From NCBI GenBank assembly GCA_903840265.1, contig CAIMFH010000109.1:62001-126000 (forward strand): a stretch of DNA of 64,000 nt. Direction: 5' to 3'. Of the stretch, positions 30,976 through 46,330 are shown piece after piece. Made by a program: the position numbers and the translations under genes. Below the pieces are notes generated by a model. The model was not told the origin of the DNA. It was given only the letters and a program-made list of their open reading frames with translations, and did not search any database. This DNA comes from an uncultured Schlesneria sp. Lineage in GTDB: Bacteria > Planctomycetota > Planctomycetia > Planctomycetales > Planctomycetaceae. The first letter of the stretch is position 1; every line of letters begins with the position of its first letter.

Positions 30976-33174
30976 CTACTTGATCGCCCAGATCCGTACC
31001 GCCCCATCTCGTCCACCCGAGGCCACGTCTGTCCCATCGCGGTTGAACGCGACTGTGTGGACGGCGTTTTCATGGCCCAGGAACGTTGAGATCAGCTTAC
31101 CTGTCGTCGCATCCCAGATCTTTACGGCCCCTTCGCTTCCGCCAGTCGCCAACTTAGTCCCATCGGGCGAATAGGCCACTGACCACACGTCGCCAGAATG
31201 CGCCGTCCATGTTTGCACAGGCTGGCCGCTGGCGGTGTTCCAGATCCGGACACTCTTGTCCCATCCCGAAGAAGCCAATCGCGTCCCATCGGGACTGTAC
31301 GCCAATCCATAAATCGGACCGGTGTGACCTTCCAGAAGCAGCTTCGTCGACAGGGTATTCGCATTCCACAAACGAACGATCTTATCACTTCCCGCTGTGG
31401 CAACAGTCTCGTTGTCCGGTGACAAAGCGATGGCCAGGACAGCACCGTGCTGAGTCTTCTCGATTGCGGCCTTCTTAAAGCCCATCTTCCAGCATCGCAC
31501 GCCACCTTCTTTCCCACACGTGAACAACGTGTGGGAATCTTTGGCAAAGGCCACCCCGCGAACGGAATTCGTACTCTCGAAAGATTCGATTGGCTCCGTC
31601 TCAGGCAATTGCCAGAGCTTGATGAACCCATCGTCGCCTGCAGTTGCCAGCATGGTCCCATCGGGCGAGTACCGCATCGACCAGATGTTCGCTCGATGAG
31701 CACTTAATGTTGCGGTCACGCTTTGGCTGGCAATATCCCAGATTCGGACTGAACCATCTTCCACGCCCATCGCAATCGATTTGCCATCGGCAGCAAACGC
31801 CACCGACCAGACAGCACCGGAATTTGCACTCAGCGTAGCCACTGGCTTCGCTGATGAAACCTCTGTTTTTCCATCGCGCCGACCACCTGCCAGGAACGAT
31901 CCAGCCAACAGGCCAACGGCCAGGAACGCCGCACCAACTCCCGCGGCGATACGACGATTGCGTTTGGCGCGTTTCTGAATCGCGATCTGGCACACGACGG
32001 GAACATCTTCGGACGTTGTCCGCATCAATGCCCATTCGTAATCCAGCAACTCCGCCAGGTGACTTGCCGATTGGATTCGATCTTCGGGCTTCTTCTCCAG
32101 CAATGTGTCGATCGTGTGAGCCAGCCACTCGGGTATTTCAGGATTCACTTCTCGCAGTGGCCGATGCTTTACGTCAGCGATCTGCCGAAGAATTGCCAGT
32201 GCTGAATTACCGGCAAACGGCGGCTCGCCGGCACACATTTCGTAAAGGATGGCTCCGAAGCTGAACAAGTCCGATCGATAGTCGACCTCCTGATCCCCTC
32301 TGGCCTGTTCGGGTGCCATGTAAAGTGGCGTACCGGTCACGAATCCTGTCCGAGTCAGCCGCGGATCGTCCACCACCCGAGCCAGTCCAAAATCGGTCAG
32401 CTTAACCCGATTCTCAGGCCCCTCCAGCAGAATGTTGCCCGGCTTGATATCGCGGTGAATCAGACCTTGAGCATGTGCCGCGACCAGGCCATGAGACGCT
32501 TCCATCGCGATGCGGACGATTTCGCGCATCGGCAGTTTCTTCTCGCGCGTTAGTCGCTGCTCCAGCGACTCGCCCGAAATCAACTGCATGACCAGGTAAG
32601 GCAGATTGTGATCGCCAGCCGCCTTCTCGACTTGATAGACAGCCACCACGTTTTCGTGAGTAATGGAAGCCGCCGACCGAGCCTCACGACAGAACCGCTG
32701 ACGTGACAACTCGTCGTATGCGAGATCGGGGTCCAGCACTTTGAGCGCGACGTGACGCTGCAGCTTCGAATCGAACGCTTCCAGCACCACACCCATCCCG
32801 CCGCGACCCAACACTCGCATCACATCAAAGTGAGCAAGCCGGCCCAGGTAGGCAGGATCAGTCGGGGGTTGCAGGAACTGCAACGACACTTCCGCAGATC
32901 GCGGCGTGCTGCGCGGGACATACGTCTCGCTCAGGTCCGCATCGAGTTCTTTCAGGGCGGGCCAGTACGCGGAAGACGCGACCGGTTCGACTTCATAGGC
33001 ATGGACGACGACCTGCGAAAAGTTGCTGCCGCCGGTTGCCAATACTTCCAGCTTTTCCTGGCAACATTGGCAGGAATCCATGTGCTGCGTGCATTCGACC
33101 TGGCGCTCTCCAGAGAGAGAGCCTTCGATCAGTTGCTGTAGTTCTTCGGGTTGAGGGCAAGTCGTGATGTTCAT
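30976..33174 (-). CDS. Ser/Thr protein kinase with N-terminal zinc motif and C-terminal WD40 propeller
   Basis: A 732-residue membrane kinase. Residues 28-38 contain H31-x3-C35-x2-C38, the pattern of zinc-binding anti-sigma domains. The kinase domain covers about 113-380: glycine loop GRGGMG (123-128), Lys145, HRD (240-242) and DFG (261-263). A membrane helix (about 409-430) leads to seven WD40 repeats (about 446-732), ending in VRIWDI, IKLWQL, VRCWKM, VRLWNA, VRIWNT, VKIWDA and VRIWAI: one complete propeller. The ATG is one base after the stop of the ECF sigma gene, with AGGAGG upstream, so the pair is coupled. The sequence suggests the kinase controls that sigma factor. Confidence 0.93.
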   Translation of the reverse strand: MNITTCPQPEELQQLIEGSLSGERQVECTQHMDSCQCCQEKLEVLATGGSNFSQVVVHAYEVEPVASSAYWPALKELDADLSETYVPRSTPRSAEVSLQFLQPPTDPAYLGRLAHFDVMRVLGRGGMGVVLEAFDSKLQRHVALKVLDPDLAYDELSRQRFCREARSAASITHENVVAVYQVEKAAGDHNLPYLVMQLISGESLEQRLTREKKLPMREIVRIAMEASHGLVAAHAQGLIHRDIKPGNILLEGPENRVKLTDFGLARVVDDPRLTRTGFVTGTPLYMAPEQARGDQEVDYRSDLFSFGAILYEMCAGEPPFAGNSALAILRQIADVKHRPLREVNPEIPEWLAHTIDTLLEKKPEDRIQSASHLAELLDYEWALMRTTSEDVPVVCQIAIQKRAKRNRRIAAGVGAAFLAVGLLAGSFLAGGRRDGKTEVSSAKPVATLSANSGAVWSVAFAADGKSIAMGVEDGSVRIWDIASQSVTATLSAHRANIWSMRYSPDGTMLATAGDDGFIKLWQLPETEPIESFESTNSVRGVAFAKDSHTLFTCGKEGGVRCWKMGFKKAAIEKTQHGAVLAIALSPDNETVATAGSDKIVRLWNANTLSTKLLLEGHTGPIYGLAYSPDGTRLASSGWDKSVRIWNTASGQPVQTWTAHSGDVWSVAYSPDGTKLATGGSEGAVKIWDATTGKLISTFLGHENAVHTVAFNRDGTDVASGGRDGAVRIWAIK

Positions 33175-34773: not shown

Positions 34774-37473
34774 ATGAGTTACCCGTCGGAGATTCCGTCC
34801 ATGCCATCCATTGAAAGTCGCCTTGAAGAGCTGCTTCGACGTGGCGAAGACATGCGGACGCGCGGTGAACCGGTTTCAGCCGAGGAGTTGTGCCGGGACT
34901 GTCCTGAACTGGTGATGCTTCTTCGCGCACGAATGGAAGGCGAACCACTGACGAAACCTCGAGAAGACACCAGTCCGACCAGTCAGCCTCCCGCACGCTC
35001 CTACGATAACGACGACTTGCACATCGGCAGCGAACCGATCGCCGGGTACAAGCTGGTCCTGCGCCTGGGTCGCGGCGGGTATGGCGAAGTCTGGAAAGCG
35101 ATCGCACCAGGTGGATTTGCGGTCGCGTTGAAGTTCGTTCCCTTGGCGACCGACGGCCTACAAGTGGAACAGCGGGCACTCGATATTATCAGGACACTTC
35201 GACATCCGTGCTTGCTGACCACGGTCGGATCCTGGCAGACGAACCGGTACTTGGTCATCGCCATGGAACTGGCCGACCGGACGCTCAAAGATCGCTTTCA
35301 GGAGGCGGTCCGTCAGGGATACATCGGGATCCCTCGAGAAGAAGTGCTGGAGTACTTTCACGAAGCCGCCAAAGGGCTTGATTTCCTGAACGACCCGCGA
35401 CATCCGTACGACGGACAGGAACGGGTCAGTTTTCAGCATCGTGACATCAAGCCCGAAAATATTCTGCTGGTCGGCGGCGGTGCGAAAGTGGCCGACTTCG
35501 GACTGGTTCGATTGCTCGAGCAAGCGCAAACCAGCCACACCGGCAGCATGACGCCGATTTATGCAGCCCCCGAATTCTTCGAAGGCCATACGTCGCAACA
35601 TTCCGATCAATATTCGCTGGCGATCACCTACTGCCATCTGCGAGGGGGACGCGTTCCCTTTGTTGGCAGCCTGGCGGACGTCATGCGTGGCCATTTGAAA
35701 GAAACCCCTGATCTGTCGATGTTGCCTCCGGAAGAACGCTCGATCGTCGGTCGTGCGCTTTCAAAAGTGCCGACGCAACGATGGCCGAACTGTGTGACGC
35801 TCATTTCTGAATTGCGCAACTGCCTGACCAAGAAGAGTGGTGCTCCTGCGGCCAATCTCAGTGGCGCAACTTACAAGCCCGCAGCAGGTTCGCAGGCGAC
35901 CGCGATGCCTCCGGCTTCTTCTCACATCGTGAGAAGCCAACCTGCAAAACGACGCGGTCTCGGCTTTGCCGTCTTCAGTGTATTGGCCGTGTGCGCGGTC
36001 GTCGCGGTGGCGATGAACGAATCTTCGCGCGACTACCTGAAGGACCTCTTCGCCGAAAAGAAATCGGACGAGAAGAAGGGCGAAGAGAAGAAGACTGACG
36101 ATAAAAAGGAATCGACTGCCGACGCGGAGGCTGCCGCCAAGAAATCGACTGAGGTAGCGAAGGCTGTGGAGTCGGCCCCGGCATCAGTCGCGACCAATGA
36201 TAAGACGCCGCCTGCCCTCCCAGTTGCTCCCGCATTGCCGAGTGACACTGCGGGAACCCCTGCCACCGTCGCTGAAAAGCCTCCGGTGGATCCGCCGAAG
36301 GTGACCACCAATCCAAAGACCGCCAAGTTAGAAGCACCAGCACTGCTCAATCCGAACCAGGAGCCGCAGGCCCCATCGAAGGACGATGCCACAAAGCCGA
36401 CAGTACCAGCACCATCGGTTCCTGCCGTTGCCGCGACTGGTACGCCAACACCGCCGATCATTCCACCGGCACCACCAACGCCGACTCCAACCGTGACGCC
36501 TGAGTCCACTTCTCCACCGGCATCAACTGCGACGGCCACTCCAACTCCGAAGGCAACTACCCCTCCGACTCCCACGAACGTGTTAAAGGAAGCTCCGCCT
36601 CCAGAACCTCGATCGGTGCGAAAGCCGGGCGAATCAGCTGACCCCAAAGTGATCGCTGCAGTGACTCCAGCCGTTGTCACTCCTAAGGAGCCTCCCGCGC
36701 CGTTGAAGTCACCATTCAACGAAGTTGCCGCAAAGACTGCGCAACAAGCTTGGGCGACGTATGCGGGGCGACCGGTCGTGGAGACCAATTCCATCGGGAT
36801 GGAATTGACGCTGATTCCACCTGGCGAGTTCTCGATTGGTATGGATCCGGCCGATGTCACTCGTCCGCCTCATGCCCTTCCACCTCAGAAGACTGTCATC
36901 AAATCGCCGTTCAGCTTCGGCACGACAGAGGTCACGCAAGGTCAATGGTTTCGAGTCATGCAGACTCAGCCCTGGTCGACTCACCGCATGAAGAACGACA
37001 ATGATCTTCCTGCCGCGTGGATCACTTGGACCGAAGCGAATCAATTCTGTTCGCAACTGACGAAGCTCGAACAAGAGAAGGGGCAGTTGGGAAAACAGGC
37101 GCGGTACCAATTGCCGTCGGAAGCGGAATGGGAATGGTCATGCCGAGCTGGCACGGTGAGCAAATTCAGTTGTGCTGACGCTGAGTTGGCTCAGTATTGC
37201 TGGTATGAAAACAACGCGGACGGCGAATTGCACCCGGTCCGCAAGCTAAAACCGAATCCATTCAACTTGTACGACATGCATGGCAACATGGCCGAATGGT
37301 GTCGCGATAACTTCTTGAGCCCCGGATCGTTACAACTTTCTAAGGGCTATCTGCACGGAGGCAACTGGAAGCGCACTGCGCGACATTGTGCGTCGGCCGC
37401 ACGAGATCCACTTGCGATTGATTCTCAACACTCGGAGAATGGTTTCCGCGTGGTGAGAACAGAGCAGCCTTAA
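34774..37473 (+). CDS. Ser/Thr protein kinase fused to formylglycine-generating-enzyme (sulfatase-modifying factor) domain
   Basis: An 899-residue membrane protein. The kinase domain (about 91-350) has GRGGYG (99-104), Lys120, HRD (222-224) and DFG (241-243). A membrane helix at 395-414 is followed by a Lys/Glu and then Pro/Thr/Ala-rich spacer of about 240 residues. The C-terminal FGE/SUMF1-type domain (about 669-899) has NSIGMELTLIPPGEFSIG, YQLPSEAEWEWSCRAG, NLYDMHGNMAEWC, GGNW and GFRVVR. The kinase would be cytoplasmic and the FGE-like part external, probably a ligand or substrate sensor rather than an enzyme. An AGG precedes the ATG. The three-repeat secreted protein follows 32 bases later. 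Confidence 0.93.
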   Translation: MSYPSEIPSMPSIESRLEELLRRGEDMRTRGEPVSAEELCRDCPELVMLLRARMEGEPLTKPREDTSPTSQPPARSYDNDDLHIGSEPIAGYKLVLRLGRGGYGEVWKAIAPGGFAVALKFVPLATDGLQVEQRALDIIRTLRHPCLLTTVGSWQTNRYLVIAMELADRTLKDRFQEAVRQGYIGIPREEVLEYFHEAAKGLDFLNDPRHPYDGQERVSFQHRDIKPENILLVGGGAKVADFGLVRLLEQAQTSHTGSMTPIYAAPEFFEGHTSQHSDQYSLAITYCHLRGGRVPFVGSLADVMRGHLKETPDLSMLPPEERSIVGRALSKVPTQRWPNCVTLISELRNCLTKKSGAPAANLSGATYKPAAGSQATAMPPASSHIVRSQPAKRRGLGFAVFSVLAVCAVVAVAMNESSRDYLKDLFAEKKSDEKKGEEKKTDDKKESTADAEAAAKKSTEVAKAVESAPASVATNDKTPPALPVAPALPSDTAGTPATVAEKPPVDPPKVTTNPKTAKLEAPALLNPNQEPQAPSKDDATKPTVPAPSVPAVAATGTPTPPIIPPAPPTPTPTVTPESTSPPASTATATPTPKATTPPTPTNVLKEAPPPEPRSVRKPGESADPKVIAAVTPAVVTPKEPPAPLKSPFNEVAAKTAQQAWATYAGRPVVETNSIGMELTLIPPGEFSIGMDPADVTRPPHALPPQKTVIKSPFSFGTTEVTQGQWFRVMQTQPWSTHRMKNDNDLPAAWITWTEANQFCSQLTKLEQEKGQLGKQARYQLPSEAEWEWSCRAGTVSKFSCADAELAQYCWYENNADGELHPVRKLKPNPFNLYDMHGNMAEWCRDNFLSPGSLQLSKGYLHGGNWKRTARHCASAARDPLAIDSQHSENGFRVVRTEQP

Positions 37474-37505: not shown

Positions 37506-39074
37506 ATGGCCTCAAAATTCCGCGGACCTTTCGTGGTACTGACAACCGGCGCGATGCTCTCGCTAAGTACCTTTGCGACTGCTCATGGACCACGAGGCGG
37601 CGGCATAAGCGGCGGGGGTGGAGGTGGTCTAGGCCAGCGACAGGGGCCTCTGCGATCTAGCGGCTTGATTCCGGGCTTGGGGGGAAGAAATTCGCAGGGA
37701 ATGTCGCCACAACAAGGGACGTTCCCAACTCAACCAGGCACGATTCCAGGCCAGCAGGGCACGTTCCCAACGCAGTCAGTGACTCCAGTTCAGCCTGCAG
37801 CTCCGCTGCCGCCGCAGAATTTGGCCATCACTCCAATCGCTGCGCCGGCACCAGTAAAAGCCCCACAACTTGCAGCCAAGGGACTGTCGCAGCAGATGAA
37901 CGAGTTTTGTGTGTCGATGCACAAGACGTACGGCAAGATGAAAAACTTCGGTGATGCTTATCGCGAAGCCTACGAACTGCTGCAGATGGCCAAGAAGATC
38001 GATGCCGCGATCGCCGCAGGGGGAACTCCTCAAAGCATCAGCGATCAATTGATGGAGTTCGATGGTGAGATTCACCATGTCGAAAACCACATCGCGGAAT
38101 TCGCGACAATTCAGGGGCCGAATAACAAGACCGAGCAAGCGGGAGTTTCAAAGAGTCTAAATGCAGTGGAATCGGCCCTCGATGGGATGCTGAAAAAAGC
38201 AGGAATCGATCGTTCCATCGCACCTCCGCCGCCACCTCCGCTGGTCAACAAGAATGCTGAGCCTGCCGTCGTCACTGTCTCGGCGGTGTCTGACCCACGC
38301 GAACTCGTCGGCACGACCAAGGAACTGACTCAGAAGACGAATGAGTTCTGCCTCGAGATGCACAAGACCTACTCCAGCCAGCCAGAATTTAATGAGGCGT
38401 ACCGCGAAGCTTTTGAACTTCTGCAGCTGGCGAAGAAGATCGAAAGTGATGTCTCGGCGGGCGCAGATGCGAAGTCGGTCAGCGGACAACTGTCAGAATT
38501 CGACAGCGAGATGCATCACGTCGAAGAGCATCTTTCTGACTTTGCCAAGGCTCAGGGAGCAAACAACAAAGCTGGGCAAGACAGCGTGGCGGCTAACTTT
38601 GCGGCCGTCGGATCGACGCTGGAGAGGGCGATGGGTCAGCTGGGCTTGCGACGCAAAGCGGAAGACGCCCACAACCATGCTGAAGTCGCAGCCTTGCCAA
38701 ATGGCCTGCCATTCAGCCAGCAGACGAGCGTGCTCTACGACAAGATTGGATCGTTCTGCAATGCGATGGATCACAACTTCAAAATGAATCCCGATTTTCC
38801 GGAAGCCTACCGAGAAGCTTACGCGGTCTACGAGATCTCGAAGAAGGTCGTGGACCTCGCAAAGAACAATGAGATCAGTGCGGAATGCAAAGAACTCCTG
38901 GTGGAGATCGATGGAGAAATGCATCACTTGGAAGAACACGTAGACAGCTTCAAGTCCGACGACAAGGGGACTGGCGAAGGGTCACGACGAGTGAAGCGAA
39001 AGCTGTCCGATGTGGAAGATACTTTGCACGCGCTGATGGCTCAGGTTGGAATCAAACGTAAGCACGCCGAGTAA
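37506..39074 (+). CDS. Secreted protein with three E-x-H-H-x-E-x-H helical repeats
   Basis: A 522-residue exported protein: Sec signal peptide (residues 1-27), a Gly- then Gln/Pro-rich spacer (28-125), and three copies of a roughly 107-residue helical module at about 128-234, 274-382 and 408-516. Each has FC-x2-M near its start (Cys135, 282, 418), then AYREA(Y/F), and an invariant E-x-H-H-x-E-x-H (188-195, 335-342, 471-478). Conserved His, Glu and Cys on amphipathic helices suggest a metal- or cofactor-binding helical bundle, but this is inference; I recognise no family. It starts 32 bases after the kinase-FGE gene and may share its transcript. A start 15 bases upstream is possible. Confidence 0.85.
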   Translation: MASKFRGPFVVLTTGAMLSLSTFATAHGPRGGGISGGGGGGLGQRQGPLRSSGLIPGLGGRNSQGMSPQQGTFPTQPGTIPGQQGTFPTQSVTPVQPAAPLPPQNLAITPIAAPAPVKAPQLAAKGLSQQMNEFCVSMHKTYGKMKNFGDAYREAYELLQMAKKIDAAIAAGGTPQSISDQLMEFDGEIHHVENHIAEFATIQGPNNKTEQAGVSKSLNAVESALDGMLKKAGIDRSIAPPPPPPLVNKNAEPAVVTVSAVSDPRELVGTTKELTQKTNEFCLEMHKTYSSQPEFNEAYREAFELLQLAKKIESDVSAGADAKSVSGQLSEFDSEMHHVEEHLSDFAKAQGANNKAGQDSVAANFAAVGSTLERAMGQLGLRRKAEDAHNHAEVAALPNGLPFSQQTSVLYDKIGSFCNAMDHNFKMNPDFPEAYREAYAVYEISKKVVDLAKNNEISAECKELLVEIDGEMHHLEEHVDSFKSDDKGTGEGSRRVKRKLSDVEDTLHALMAQVGIKRKHAE

Positions 39075-39105: not shown

Positions 39106-41481
39106 TCAGTGCAGATCGCGTTTCCAGAGCACGAGATGCACTGCCGCATACAAGCCAGCGAGCATTGAGAACAGGACGAGCTGAGCCTTTTTAGTCCCGT
39201 CGCGCTCATCCTTTTCGGGAAAGAACCTCTCGGCGATGTCCGGGGCGAGGTCCTTCGGTGCCGGTTGCCCAGGGGGAAGTTCGGGACGCGGCGCACGCGG
39301 CTGCTCTTCATTCTCTGTTGCCAGCGAGCCTGAAAAGGCCCAGCGGGACGGCATCGCGTTCGCAATCGGTTGGATGAACTTCTGTGTTTCATGAATCGGG
39401 ATCATCACCCCACCCAACATCACCATTGGCAATAGAGCGATCGGCAGCAATGCGACCGCTGCCTCGGATGAACTGGTGGCCGCCGAAACGAGTAGCCCCA
39501 ATCCGACGCCCACGAGTGACACCAGCAGCAGACTGAGATAGTGAGCACCGAACGATCCTTTCAGTCCGCAGCCGTACGTCACAATCAGCAGCAGGACGAT
39601 GCACTGCAGGGCCGAGAGGATTCCCAGCACGCAAAACTTGGACGCGACGTATGCAGGGATCCGCAGATTGACCATGCGTTCGCGTCGATAGATCGTCCAT
39701 TCGCCGACAATTTCACGGACGGAATTCGAGCACCCGAACCAGAGGCCGGCCAGCGTCATAATGAATAGTGACATTGGCAGCGTGTTCGCGACCTCAGTCC
39801 AGGTCTCCAAGTCTTTGCCCGCATCCTGAGACGCGCGTTTTCCGAATGTCATTACGATCAGAATCGCAACGACCGGTGCCTGGGCGAAAAGAATAAACGT
39901 GTTCCACGTATCGCGAGCTTTGATCGAGAAACACCGTCTCGTGAGGGTCGCCCACTGAGTAATCGTGCCGCCCGATCGCGGCTTCGTTTCCATTTCCTGC
40001 TTCGAACCCAGCTGATTGGCCTGCGACAAGGCATTGTTCGCACTGCTCTTCTTGCTCAAGCCTGACTCGCGAAATCGCGTAATCCATTCATGAGTCGGCT
40101 TCTTGCCCAATCCGCGCAGGACTTCATCGGGCGACGGATCCGTTCCTGTCGGCCACTTTTTATCAGGGTTGAAGAAATTGACGGCACCAGGATACGCCGG
40201 GCCATAATAAGCCAATCGGCCAGGGTCGGAGGTTCCGACATCCTTAGAGACAACCGTCAAGTTGTCGAGGAGTCGAAACACCTCAAGGCTAGGCTGGTGA
40301 ATGGTCAACAAAATCGTTTTGCCGGAATCGGCGAGTCCGCGCAGCACCTTCATGACCATCAACGCATCTTCGGATGACAGGCCGGAGGTAGGCTCGTCCA
40401 GAAACAGCACCAGCGGCTCGGTCAGCAACTCCATCGCCAGGTTAACTCGCTTGCGTTGCCCGCCACTAATCCCTTTTTTCTCAGCCGATCCGATCAAAAC
40501 ATCGCGGACACCGTTCAGCCCCATTTGCTCGAGGACCTTCTTAACGCAGGCCTCGATATCCGCATTAGTGTAGTCGTCAGGGAGCCGCAATTTCGCTGTG
40601 TAGTATAGGGCTTCGCTGACAGTCAAATCGCGATGGATGATATCGTCCTGGGGAACGTATCCCATGCGAATGGCGAATCGACCATAGTTTCCGTACAGCG
40701 ATTCGCCATTGAAGAGCACGTCGCCACTCGATGGACGGACATAGCCGTTCATGGCACTCATCAACGTCGTCTTCCCCGCGCCACTGGGCCCCATCAGACC
40801 GACGAATTGACCGGGCTGGATGACGATGGAGACATCTTCAAGCAACGTCTTGCCCGGCACTTTGACGGTGAGCGACCGTGTTTCGATCGACAACTTCCCG
40901 CGCAGGTCGGATTGCTCGATCAGGCCTTGCAGGTTCAGCTTAAGTTCGAAACTCCCCAGACTGATGATGTCGCCAACATTGAGCGACGTGGGAGCCGAGA
41001 TCCTTTGGCCGTTAACGAACGTTCCGTTGGATGAGCCGAGATCTTCGACAGTGACACCAGCTCGTGTTCGCGTCAGTTTCGCGTGTTGCCTGGAGACCAT
41101 CGGGTGGTCGAAAACATGATCGCAAGACGGATCACGTCCAACGATGATTTCCTGGGTGGGAAACGATAGCGTTTGCGACGATGGTACCGCAGGGCCCTTG
41201 ATCAGAGTTGCCCCGGGACCGGGGCCGGGGGCGACTTGATCCGTGACTTCGGGCCAAACCATCTGGCCGGTGACTCCCAGCACGACCCAGTCGTCCCGTG
41301 AAATTGTGGTGGGACCAGAAATTCGAACGCCGTTGACGAATGTCCCGTTTGAAGAACCAAGATCCTCAAGGATCCATTGCTGACCGCGCCGAGACAATCG
41401 ACAGTGCTTCGACGAAACACTGACGTCTGCGACGACAAGATCGCAATCCGGGGTTCGACCAATGATCCATTCAGACTGCAT
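39106..41481 (-). CDS. ABCG-type ABC transporter with two N-terminal FHA domains
   Basis: A 791-residue half-transporter-like protein. Two forkhead-associated domains (about 1-75 and 105-182) each show GR-x-P/D ... LEDLGSSNGTFVNG or VEDLGSSNGTFVNG, the phosphothreonine-binding core. The ABC domain (about 195-430) has GPSGAGKTTLMSAMNG, signature ISGGQRKRVNLAMELL and Walker B LVLFLDEPTSGLSS. The permease part (about 540-785) has six or seven helices in the ABC2/ABCG style. FHA modules imply that kinases control it; two Ser/Thr kinases lie within 10 kb. It is convergent with the three-repeat gene. The substrate is unknown. The ATG at 41481 was chosen over a TTG at 41499. Confidence 0.92.
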   Translation of the reverse strand: MQSEWIIGRTPDCDLVVADVSVSSKHCRLSRRGQQWILEDLGSSNGTFVNGVRISGPTTISRDDWVVLGVTGQMVWPEVTDQVAPGPGPGATLIKGPAVPSSQTLSFPTQEIIVGRDPSCDHVFDHPMVSRQHAKLTRTRAGVTVEDLGSSNGTFVNGQRISAPTSLNVGDIISLGSFELKLNLQGLIEQSDLRGKLSIETRSLTVKVPGKTLLEDVSIVIQPGQFVGLMGPSGAGKTTLMSAMNGYVRPSSGDVLFNGESLYGNYGRFAIRMGYVPQDDIIHRDLTVSEALYYTAKLRLPDDYTNADIEACVKKVLEQMGLNGVRDVLIGSAEKKGISGGQRKRVNLAMELLTEPLVLFLDEPTSGLSSEDALMVMKVLRGLADSGKTILLTIHQPSLEVFRLLDNLTVVSKDVGTSDPGRLAYYGPAYPGAVNFFNPDKKWPTGTDPSPDEVLRGLGKKPTHEWITRFRESGLSKKSSANNALSQANQLGSKQEMETKPRSGGTITQWATLTRRCFSIKARDTWNTFILFAQAPVVAILIVMTFGKRASQDAGKDLETWTEVANTLPMSLFIMTLAGLWFGCSNSVREIVGEWTIYRRERMVNLRIPAYVASKFCVLGILSALQCIVLLLIVTYGCGLKGSFGAHYLSLLLVSLVGVGLGLLVSAATSSSEAAVALLPIALLPMVMLGGVMIPIHETQKFIQPIANAMPSRWAFSGSLATENEEQPRAPRPELPPGQPAPKDLAPDIAERFFPEKDERDGTKKAQLVLFSMLAGLYAAVHLVLWKRDLH

Positions 41482-41668
41482 GGGTTCGGAACTCTGCAAC
41501 TATGAAATCAAATCGAACACTTCGTGACGCGCAGACAAATCTGGTTGACACTCGCAGGCGGAGAATTGCCGAACTGAACGGTGAATCACAATAGCGGGAA
41601 TGGCCGGCGGACGACGTTTCGCCCCCCAAATCACGACTCGCGATGTTACTGTAGAGGCAAGGAATTGA

Positions 41669-42696: not shown

Positions 42697-45600
42697 TTAT
42701 TTTCGATTGACCACGCTGCACTTATTAGCGGGCTGTTTCCAATCCAACCAGCGCTTGATTTCGGAAAGGATGCAGTGGACTTGTTGATCGAATGGTGCCA
42801 TTCGTTCGACGACCGCGGCAGCGTTGTCCGACTGAGCAAGCATTTCGATCTGCTTTGCCAGTTGGACCGCATCAGAGTTGCCGAAGAGTTGCAGGCTGCC
42901 GCGGATTGTATGAACCGCGCGCTTCAGAGGAACGATATCCGCGACTGTTGCGGCGCGGTTTAGCTCGGCCAGCAGCTTGGGCCATTCTTTCAGTAGTTCT
43001 TCCAAGACATCGCAAAGCAACTCCTGATTGCCATCGACGGCCAGCAGCGCTTCTTCCCACTCCAGTGTCCACTCGCGCGGTTCGACTAGAGAGATTGGTG
43101 GTGAAGTTGCCGCCTGCGGTGTCGCACCTTCAGCCATCGCGTCCTTGCTGACTGGAGTCGCATCCACAGGTTGAGTTTCCGGAGCGATTGCGATGGAAGC
43201 AATCAGATTCGGGAATCTCTGAACGGCGCTGTCCAACGCTTGCCGGAGGTCTGGCCAGCGAATCGGCTTCGTGACATAGTCGTCCATTCCAGCGCGGATA
43301 AACACTTCGCGATCGCCTTTCATGGCGTGGGCTGTCATCGCGATGATGGGAACATGGCCGCCACGCTGCTGTTCATAATCGCGGATTCGAGCGGTCGCCT
43401 GGAGGCCATCCACTTCCGGCATCTGCACGTCCATCAGTACGACGTCGAACTTTCCTTGAAGGAATTCTTCGACGGCTTCCCGGCCGTTGCTCGCAACTTT
43501 TAAGGAATGACCCCACTTGCGCAGGACTCCAAGTGCCAATTGCTGGTTGGCTTCGCTGTCTTCCACCAGGAGGATGCTAAGCGATCGGCACGGTTCGGGC
43601 ACTGCTGCTATTGGCACCTCGCGATGTTCCACCTGACCCATCACCGCGGCGATGGAACCAAGCAGTTCTGACGGTTTGATCGGCTTGATCAGATGATTGA
43701 TTGCTCCCAACTCGTGACATCGAGCAACGTCTTCAGGGCCCGCCCCTGAACTGAGCATCATGATCATCGTACTGTCGAACCGGTCGTCGCGGCGGATTCG
43801 CGAGGCCAGTTCGAATCCGTCGACCTCGGGCATGTGTACATCAGACAGGACGACACGGAAGGGATCCTGAGAATTTGCCGCACGGCAAAGTTCGGCCAGC
43901 GCAGCTTTAGCCGACATCACGCATTGCGGTCGCATGAACCAGGCCGTCAACGTCTCTTGCAGGATCAGACAGTTGGTGGCGTTGTCATCAACAATGAGGA
44001 CGCGCAGGCCCTTGAGGCTCTCCAGTGAGGCGGGCAACGGATGAGGCGAATAGTCTCTTTCAAATTGGGAAGTGAAATGAAACGTGCTTCCTTTTCCTGG
44101 CACGCTCTCAACCCATGTGCGGCCGTTCATCAACGGAACCAGTCGGGCTGTAATTGCCAATCCGAGGCCGGTTCCCCCGTACCGTCGCGTGGTGGAAGCG
44201 TCGACCTGCGAGAATGCACTGAACAGGAGGTGCAGCTTATCTGCGGGAATGCCGATCCCCGTGTCTCGTACTGCGAAGTGAATTCGAACGTCAGCGACAC
44301 TTCGCTCTTCCAGCGAAACATCTAGCACGACTTCGCCGTGTTCCGTGAACTTCAGTGCGTTGCCAACGAGGTTCGTGACGACTTGCCGCAGACGATGGGG
44401 ATCGCCCATTAGAAATTCGGGCACGTCGGATGCGACGTGACAGGCAAGTTCAAGATCCTTGCCGCGGGCGCGAACGGCGAGGGTCTTCATCGTATCTCCG
44501 AGCATATCACGAAGTCGAAAAGCAGTGCGATCGAGTTCTAGCTTGCCGGCTTCGATCTTGGAGAAATCGAGGATGTCATTGATCAGCGACAGCAGGGACT
44601 CGGCCGAGTCCCTGACGATGTTGAGATATGCTCGGTGAGTGTCTTCGAGCTGGCAGTCAAGAACCAGTTCCGTCATACCGATAATGGCGTTCATGGGGGT
44701 TCGAATTTCATGGCTCATATTCGCCAGGAACTCGCTTTTGGCACGATTGGCCGCATCTGCTTCGTCGCGTGCCCGGCGGATCGCCTCGTCCGCACGTCGC
44801 CGCTGCGTCGTGTCCTGAAAAACGACCACTCCCCCTTCGATCCCTTCGTCCCCTTTCAGCGGCCTGCCGGTCACGCTGATATTGACCCCTTCCGGAAGTT
44901 GGGGATTCTTGATCAGAAGATCCCGCTGATCTGTCGATTCCCCGCGAATCGCCCGGACTAGCGGGATCTCATCCAGTTTCAATGGCTCGCCCGATTCGGG
45001 GGAAAACAATCCATACTGGCTGGTCCACGCCTCGGGAGGTACATCGAGGGCTCCCAGTCCGAGGATTCGCTCGGCCACCGGATTGAAAACCAGAAATCGG
45101 CCGTCGCGGTCCGCCACGACGACGCCGTCTCCCATGCTGTTCAGCACGGATTCAAGAATCGCACTCTTGCGCCCCAGGTCTTTTTGAGCGAGGGTCTTTT
45201 CGGCATCGATGCGATTCAGCGAACGCGCATTCCACCAGATCAGAGTTGTGAACAATACAATCGTCGAAACGACAAACAGTGATACGCCAAATGAGGGCCC
45301 AAAAAACTCAGCATGCTGACCAGCAGATGCCAGCCAGGCCAGTGCCGCGGGAGCGAGGATTGACGCCGGGAGTAGCTTCCGCGCCATCACGCCTCCGGAC
45401 TCGCGATGGCAGACGACGGCCATCAGCCCGCAATCGGGCCTCGCCAGCAACAGACCTGTCGCCAACAGTGCCAGCGTCACGGCTGAGTTCAAAGCCATCG
45501 GGATAAAAGATTGAATTCCAATCAAAATGGCCACATTGCAGACGTAACCGATCAATGCAAATAGCGAGAGCAGCGCAATTCCCAATGCCAGCCATTGTGC

Positions 45601-46092
45601 TGGGCGAATACCACGGCGAGTTTCAATATCGAGTACAAGTAGTGCGATCCCGACAAGCAGCAGTCCCAGCGCCGTGTTTGGGGCCATTCGATTGGGCGGC
45701 AGATACATGTCGAGCTTTGCGCGAAACAGCCATTGATCGGGGCCCCATTCGAGCCCGAATGTGTACAGGACCAATCGGAGCAAAGTGATCGCAATAACTG
45801 CAGCCGCCATGGCCCGGGCAACTCTCGTCATGCGACTGCTTCGTGCTGGTGTCGTCAGACACCAAAGAGACCCGCCCGCAAGTAAGAACGCCAAGGCCGA
45901 TCCACCTGGGTTCATGGCCGTCAAACCCGGAATCACGCTCCGCAGCACTTCGACATTCAGAGCCCAGCCGATCAGCACCAATACGGCGACGGCCAACACG
46001 ATCGCGCCTGCAACCCGAGCCGTACCCCGCATTCGGCCGAGGATCTTCGGATCAAACGCTGCCGCCTCATTGCGCTCTTCGGTCGCCGCCAT
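42697..46092 (-). CDS. Hybrid sensor histidine kinase with two receiver domains and HPt
   Basis: About 1131 residues from the ATG at 46092 (AAGGG upstream). The N-terminal third has eight or so membrane helices (about 20-285). Then come a PAS domain (about 310-435), HisKA with His461 in [16 protein letters not shown], HATPase_c (N box [16 protein letters not shown] boxes RDTGIGIP and GGTGLGLAI), receiver 1 (Asp751 in [13 protein letters not shown]), receiver 2 (Asp888 in [13 protein letters not shown]) and a C-terminal HPt with His1061 (AVHTIRGS). This is a complete BarA/EvgS-like phosphorelay in one protein, so the final response regulator is elsewhere. The multi-helix input suggests sensing within the membrane. 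A methyltransferase gene follows. Confidence 0.92.
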
Positions 46093-46330
46093 GTTAGCCC
46101 TTAGATGACAGGCGATCATGGCAAAGCAGGAGCTCCTTGAAAGGCTGCTCGCCAGACCAAATCCGAATATGCTTGCGACTGAGTCTACTGCGCCGCGGCA
46201 GCTATTGAGAAGGCTATTACGCCAAGCCGCATACCGGAGTGGATGGAAATTGCCTGCCACACTCCATTCATCAAGCAACGGAAGTACCGCGGCCCCCCGG
46301 TCTCAGGAAATTATGGCGATCGAATTTTAC

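Follow-up and report, generated by a model that had tools for sequence, protein, structure and literature searches.

The window, a 64,000-nucleotide stretch of DNA from an uncultured Schlesneria sp., carries a gene for a 522-residue protein directly downstream of a gene for a Ser/Thr protein kinase with a C-terminal FGE-type domain (Table 1). An AAGGA sequence precedes the ATG of the former gene inside the 32-bp gap that follows the kinase gene. The encoded protein begins with a signal-peptide-like segment, followed by a stretch rich in Gly, Pro, and Gln and by three modules of about 107 residues. Export had been proposed in an earlier note on this DNA, and residues 1–26, judged by eye, do resemble a signal peptide. 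Cysteines occur only at residues 135, 282, 418, and 461, one at the same place in each module and one extra in module 3. One copy of the gene was found in the window's genome, and a close relative (89% identity) is present in a Schlesneria sp. An ABC-2 type transporter fused to two FHA domains (39106–41499, minus strand) is encoded convergently with the three-module gene, and a full-length match to it was found beside a three-module gene only in L031/L057. The window also encodes a protein kinase fused to WD40 repeats (30976–33174, minus strand).

Table 1. Coordinates of features in the window and in the neighborhoods of relatives (the latter with locus prefix).
Feature	Position	Strand	Remarks
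Ser/Thr protein kinase, C-terminal FGE-type domain	34774..37473	+	PF00069, PF03781; 32 bp upstream of three-module gene
Alternative start TTG	37491	+	possible, less likely than ATG
Gene of exported three-module protein	37506..39074	+	522 aa; ATG 37506, stop 39072-39074
Putative signal peptide, residues 1-26	37506..37583	+	by eye from translation
Module 1	37881..38210	+	FC 37905, AYREA 37956, ExHHxExH 38067-38090
Module 2	38322..38651	+	FC 38346, AYREA 38397, ExHHxExH 38508-38531; predicted four-helix bundle
Module 3	38730..39056	+	FC 38754, AYREA 38805, ExHHxExH 38916-38939; helices in weak full-length model
SPC-type P1B ATPases, each near a single-module gene	L065:11219-13645, L069:9245-11704, L071:9147-11618		
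Small His-rich protein with EGPHHGDLVELGNEEYHAE-like motif	L061:50-613, L065:14985-15551, L067:11081-11620, L068:8817-9398, L069:5327-5851, L071:2083-2973		

All three modules retain FCxxM (at residues 134, 281, and 417), AYREA (at 151, 298, and 434), and ExHHxExH (residues 188–195, 335–342, and 471–478). Module 2 is 49% identical to module 1 and 31% identical to module 3. Local-alignment scores of 293 (modules 1 and 2), 157 (modules 2 and 3), and 137 (modules 1 and 3) lie far above those of shuffled sequences (300 shuffles per module pair; means 27–29, standard deviation about 5, highest 57), and the repeat is therefore not due to chance. The three motif-bearing modules described in the earlier note are thus found at exactly these residues and are homologous. 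Among eight modules from three loci, the mean pairwise identity is 42% and 15 of 106 columns are invariant, including E63, H65, H66, E68, and H70 (module numbering; in module 2 the protein residue is this number plus 272). A ninth module examined, the third of L004, no longer carries the motif and was excluded. The ExHHxExH motif, which had been called invariant, is hence kept in eight of nine modules of the three-module group, but the full motif is not kept across the wider domain family. A tree of 78 rows places the three-module rows in a single group (100/99), many other forks being unresolved. Inside this group, the third modules branch separately from the first and second ones, so that the first duplication is older than the split of the three-module loci.

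The kinase has one TM-like segment, with its start at residues 394–399, ahead of the FGE-type domain. The best PDB match of this domain is TREPONEMA DENTICOLA VARIABLE PROTEIN 1 (E 5e-24), and what we take to be the catalytic Cys pair of FGE was not seen in the C-terminal part of the kinase. The adjacency of both genes had been pointed out before; a survey of homologs demonstrates that it is real and kept in related loci. A kinase-FGE gene and a three-module gene are direct neighbors in the window, in L031/L057 (a single locus), and in L058, where their order is unchanged; at L059 the order is reversed, the three-module gene preceding the kinase-FGE gene. The pair is thus present in all three independent loci seen. 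The window's genome contains 12 FGE-type matches, G135 has 17, and G075 has 56, and from these counts we estimate a chance adjacency at about 1% per genome, which makes its repeated occurrence by chance unlikely.

The modules belong to a real domain family that is absent from the libraries searched and partly associated with metal efflux. Within the same order, 64 of 170 genomes searched contain relatives. With a profile built from 33 modules, the domain was detected in 67 of 397 genomes sampled from the class, 54 of these 67 being in the window's own family, while a draw from the phylum yielded matches in 8 of 392 genomes, one of which is marginal (E 6e-4, internal stop). The same profile also matches a histidine kinase in the window (42700–46278) with 16–17 bits over 45 positions, which we took as a chance helical match. 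The domain is usually present once, in an exported protein that often contains a histidine-rich stretch. Of 77 distinct ORFs with the domain in the fetched loci, 72 contain a single module, one contains two, and four contain three; among these four, L001 and L002 share 91% identity, and L031, being identical to L002, was merged with it. A signal-like start is seen, by a rough rule, in 62 of the 75 family ORFs with at least 40 residues before the domain. Searches of Pfam, NCBIfam models, and PDB sequences gave no convincing family, so that the earlier statement that no named family has this arrangement stands for these libraries. The best Pfam matches are short and helical (e.g., HR1_TOCA, 22.6 bits vs. 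a cut-off of 27), and another weak sequence match is to a fusion protein (E 0.0024 over 45 positions). No match was obtained in a plasmid search with two query modules or in a viral contig search with one query, and a genome contig search with exact-pattern seeds returned only the close relative L031. Literature searches found no paper joining planctomycetes, CzcA, and histidine-rich proteins and no title on the four-helix domain.

Conservation across the family differs from that within the three-module group. The weighted frequencies over 86 modules (effective number 48) are highest for Y27 (1.00), C10 (0.97), N7 (0.87), and Y31 (0.85), followed by D61 and H65 (0.81 each), E97 and H101 (0.70 each), H14 (0.67), and H66 (0.63). 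E63 (0.17), E68 (0.44), and H70 (0.17) are low in the same set. Hence, E63, E68, and H70 are marks of the three-module group, while C10, Y27, D61, and H65 are family-wide, and ExHHxExH is a signature of this group superimposed on a D-x3-H(-H) pattern found throughout the family. Over 77 rows, H65 covaries with H101 (phi 0.59). C10 is replaced by Leu in five rows and by Thr in one, and thus need not be a ligand. Single-module proteins typically carry H41-x3-H45 on helix 2 and H101-H102 on helix 4. Moreover, among 63 proteins with H65 retained, the segment ahead of the domain has a median His content of 11%, as compared to 2.8% in all called ORFs of the neighborhoods. In the modules of the window, H41, H45, and H102 are absent and position 101 is occupied by D, E, or H, and the window protein has no such histidine-rich stretch; both observations count against a role in metal binding. 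A separate subfamily (L107–L112) lacks H65 and H66 and keeps C10, mostly H14, and Y27; most of its members whose full sequence was read lack a histidine-rich stretch and contain a long insertion that separates helix 3 from helix 4.

The helical bundle suggested in the earlier note is recovered for module 2, which is predicted with high confidence, from six sequences, to be all-helical and to form a four-helix bundle (pLDDT 94.1, pTM 0.86). The model has an unbroken helix from 50 to 106, which we read as helix-turn-helix because the superposition with 2gsc spans 102 residues at 1.8 Å and because some relatives have long insertions there. A model of residues 123–522 from two sequences is weak (pLDDT 74, pTM 0.37) and shows the break between helix 3 and helix 4 in modules 2 and 3 and none in module 1. 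Foldseek returned no match to the module-2 model at E ≤0.001. In VIA-align, the top match is 2gsc (Z 14.0, 13% identity), followed by Avd (Z about 13) and, further down, YtfE (Z 10.1, 2.3 Å, 108 residues) and Csp (Z 9.3, 2.9 Å, 102 residues); Z values up to about 13 are common for helical bundles and might reflect only a shared arrangement.

The positions of the conserved residues were estimated in a crude straight-helix model oriented by family hydrophobicity, which gives geometry and not a measured site. Relative to the core direction, D61, H65, and E68 of helix 3 lie at +77 to +137 degrees and E63, H66, and H70 at -63 to -123 degrees. According to this crude geometry, the residues of the ExHHxExH motif occupy two opposite flanks of helix 3, and E63, E68, and H70 are not family-wide; the gathering of the whole motif in one site, which the earlier note had envisaged, is therefore not borne out. 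H65 (137 degrees) and H66 (-123 degrees) are on the outer half of helix 3 and rather exposed in this model, which likewise counts against a metal site. The polar residues conserved across the family all face the same flank of their respective helices (45–147 degrees). Building the straight-helix model in both handednesses results in different neighbors, and the covariation is too weak to choose between them.

The genomic surroundings of the relatives provide independent support for the idea of metal binding. CusA/CzcA-type RND genes lie within 10 kb of 13 of 85 family loci (0.7 expected) and within 15 kb of 14 of 85 (1.0 expected), and Zn/Cd-type P1B ATPase genes lie within 5 kb of 9 of 56 loci (0.17 expected) and within 15 kb of 13 of 56 (0.48 expected), all among the matches listed. 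The RND count uses 60 of the 67 matching genomes (G148, G255, G264, G376, G400, G418, and G042 were left out); modules of one gene were merged and the fragments G018:C38 and G020:C80 dropped, resulting in 85 loci, among them the few with three- or two-module genes, and both observed and expected values refer to the 150 RND genes among the matches listed. The ATPase count covers 35 of the 67 genomes, with 56 loci and 68 ATPases among the matches listed. Poisson probabilities (about 1e-12) overstate independence, as sequences and gene clusters are related by descent. True rates of proximity may be higher, since most assemblies are in pieces and the RND genes are those among the matches listed. 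When loci are divided by profile score, an RND gene is found within 15 kb of 14 of 63 strong loci and of 0 of 22 weak ones (among the matches listed), and the complete RND list, inspected by eye, places no RND match within 20 kb on the contig for any of 13 weak loci in 12 genomes. Weak loci are not uniformly devoid of H65: of nine that were read, eight lack it and one (L104) has it. The 71 of 85 loci without an RND gene within 15 kb, again among the matches listed, count against metal binding.

A cluster with an RND gene or a P1B ATPase gene is present in 7 of 16 fetched neighborhoods (L059, L061, L065, L067, L068, L069, and L071; the simple gene caller missed the family gene in L071), and the other nine have neither. 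The RND proteins of both neighborhoods scanned for them (L068 and L069) score above the TIGR00914 cut-off, and the heavy-metal P1B ATPases of the five scanned carry either a CPC motif (L059, L068) or an SPC motif (L065, L069, L071). A CusB-like HlyD protein (L069) and an outer-membrane efflux protein (L059) are further efflux neighbors, and a MacB/FtsX-type ABC transporter also recurs near family genes. In L059, the kinase-FGE gene, the three-module gene, the CPC-type ATPase, and the outer-membrane efflux protein are found within about 11 kb, and this locus thus joins the kinase context with the metal efflux context. Six of the fetched metal efflux neighborhoods also encode a small histidine-rich, lipoprotein-like protein with a motif like EGPHHGDLVELGNEEYHAE, and the one member scanned (L069) matched nothing in Pfam at E 0.001 or in NCBIfam at 1e-10. 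A second His-containing protein recurs as well (L067:11717-12385, L069:4590-5264, L065:15599-16000), its scanned L069 member having only a sub-cut-off Pfam match.

The window gene itself has no such neighbors. No metal pump is encoded among the seven window genes scanned, the whole-genome search gave no P1B ATPase match on the contig, and no RND or P1B pump lies within 50 kb of the gene; the only CusA/CzcA-type match on the contig in the full genome list is about 55 kb away. The RND match closest to the L058 three-module gene (G135:C21:867049-870102) lies at a distance of about 12 kb and scores below the heavy-metal family cut-off. A CusA/CzcA match in the window's genome (G000:C35:35869-38949) has three in-frame TGA codons in the assembly.

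The explanation that we consider best, and to which as a whole we give an even chance, is that of an extracytoplasmic four-helix domain which binds transition metal and here perhaps serves the kinase. The domain likely binds metal, and for the window protein we infer the link to metal from the context of its relatives. The bundle would bind a divalent transition metal, with Zn, Cd, Co, or Ni as the likeliest candidates, through the conserved His, Asp, and Glu residues on helices 3 and 4. In single-module relatives, the H-x3-H of helix 2 and the histidine-rich stretches may assist binding, and these proteins might act as metal buffers or sensors beside RND and P1B efflux pumps. The window protein would represent three fused copies in which ExHHxExH might offer a second, group-specific set of possible ligands per module. 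It is probably made together with the membrane Ser/Thr kinase, whose external FGE-type domain is probably non-catalytic and ligand-binding. The three-module protein in its metal-loaded (or metal-free) state would most likely touch this domain, and the kinase might in this way report external metal or envelope status. The stricter proposal that the protein is the extracytoplasmic metal receptor of the transmembrane kinase, with metal-loaded bundles binding the FGE-type ectodomain, is rather unlikely.

CnrX, ZraP, and Spy are periplasmic helical metal sensors and chaperones of the Pfam family Metal_resist. The window domain may resemble them as a putatively extracytoplasmic, predicted helical domain, part of whose relatives are encoded beside RND metal efflux genes. 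It differs in its predicted four-helix bundle within one module, in its fusion into three copies, and in its partner gene, which encodes a Ser/Thr kinase with an FGE-type domain instead of an anti-sigma factor. CnrX is reported to bind Co/Ni and to pass the signal across the membrane (PMC7689651). Metal_resist is absent from the Pfam matches of the window protein up to E 1 and of 33 family members up to E 0.1, and the domain is therefore not placed in that family, though it may work like CnrX-type binders; a metal-resistance gene context exists for part of the relatives and not for the window gene, export is judged by eye, and the helices are predicted. No chain titled CnrX, ZraP, or Spy occurs in the best 50 VIA-align rows, which by the rule of the tool excludes nothing. 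Csp proteins are Cys-rich, with many Cys lining the bundle. They share with the window domain a similar size and a predicted four-helix bundle, their Z being within the range usual for unrelated bundles, whereas the window protein has only four Cys in 522 residues and no sequence match to them.

Alternatively, the conserved stripe (N7, C10, H14, Y17, Y27, Y31, D61, H65, E97, and H101) could be a protein–protein or cell-wall interface of a helical interaction domain that works without metal. The three copies would then constitute a multivalent partner of the kinase ectodomain, and the pump neighborhood of the relatives would reflect a general envelope-stress role. We regard this as possible but somewhat unlikely. 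It agrees with the location of the conserved polar residues on one flank of all four helices, with the persistence of an H65-less subfamily that retains C10, mostly H14, and Y27, and with the lack of a metal pump near the window gene. However, relatives are associated specifically with metal efflux genes and have histidine-rich stretches, and the five Glu and His residues of the motif are exactly kept at 42% mean identity.

A dinuclear-metal bundle that handles oxygen or iron could be read from the i/i+4 pairs C10-H14, Y27-Y31, D61-H65, and E97-H101, all of which are in the family profile, and YtfE, which we take to be hemerythrin-type, is a four-helix bundle with i/i+4 polar pairs and is among the structural matches. 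This is nevertheless very improbable: there is no hemerythrin Pfam match or other sequence family match, the Z value is in the range common for helical bundles, the ligand pattern differs, Cys or Tyr takes part in two of the four pairs, all pairs are located at the flank and not in the core, and relatives have ATPases of the Zn/Cd type nearby. Still harder to credit is a four-helix relative of S23/IVP proteins and of Avd from diversity-generating retroelements, with the FGE-type neighbor as a variable-protein fold, as the structural matches to 2gsc (S23/IVP Xcc0516, the closest fold found for the predicted model) and Avd and the Treponema denticola match of the FGE-type domain would allow; helical bundles often score near Z 14.0, so that the similarity may not go beyond a common fold, there is no sequence match to the family, S23/IVP proteins and Avd are not known to be exported while the window protein has a putative signal peptide, and the two reverse transcriptases found in the genome are on other contigs (C19 and C161; the window is on C109). 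Heme binding, also raised in the earlier note, is dismissed, as the protein has no CxxCH and its four Cys positions leave no CxxC for a c-type cytochrome site.

Planctomycetes have many membrane Ser/Thr kinases with unknown signals. In the case studied here, the ligand of such a kinase becomes testable because the domain family of its probable partner handles metals according to the context of the relatives. If the proposed receptor function were true, planctomycetes would sense external transition metals through a kinase pathway of the eukaryotic kind, with a receptor that arose by fusion of several copies of an uncatalogued domain otherwise at work in metal efflux clusters. The domain family itself provides an entry point for studying how metals are handled in the periplasm of a phylum that has received little attention.
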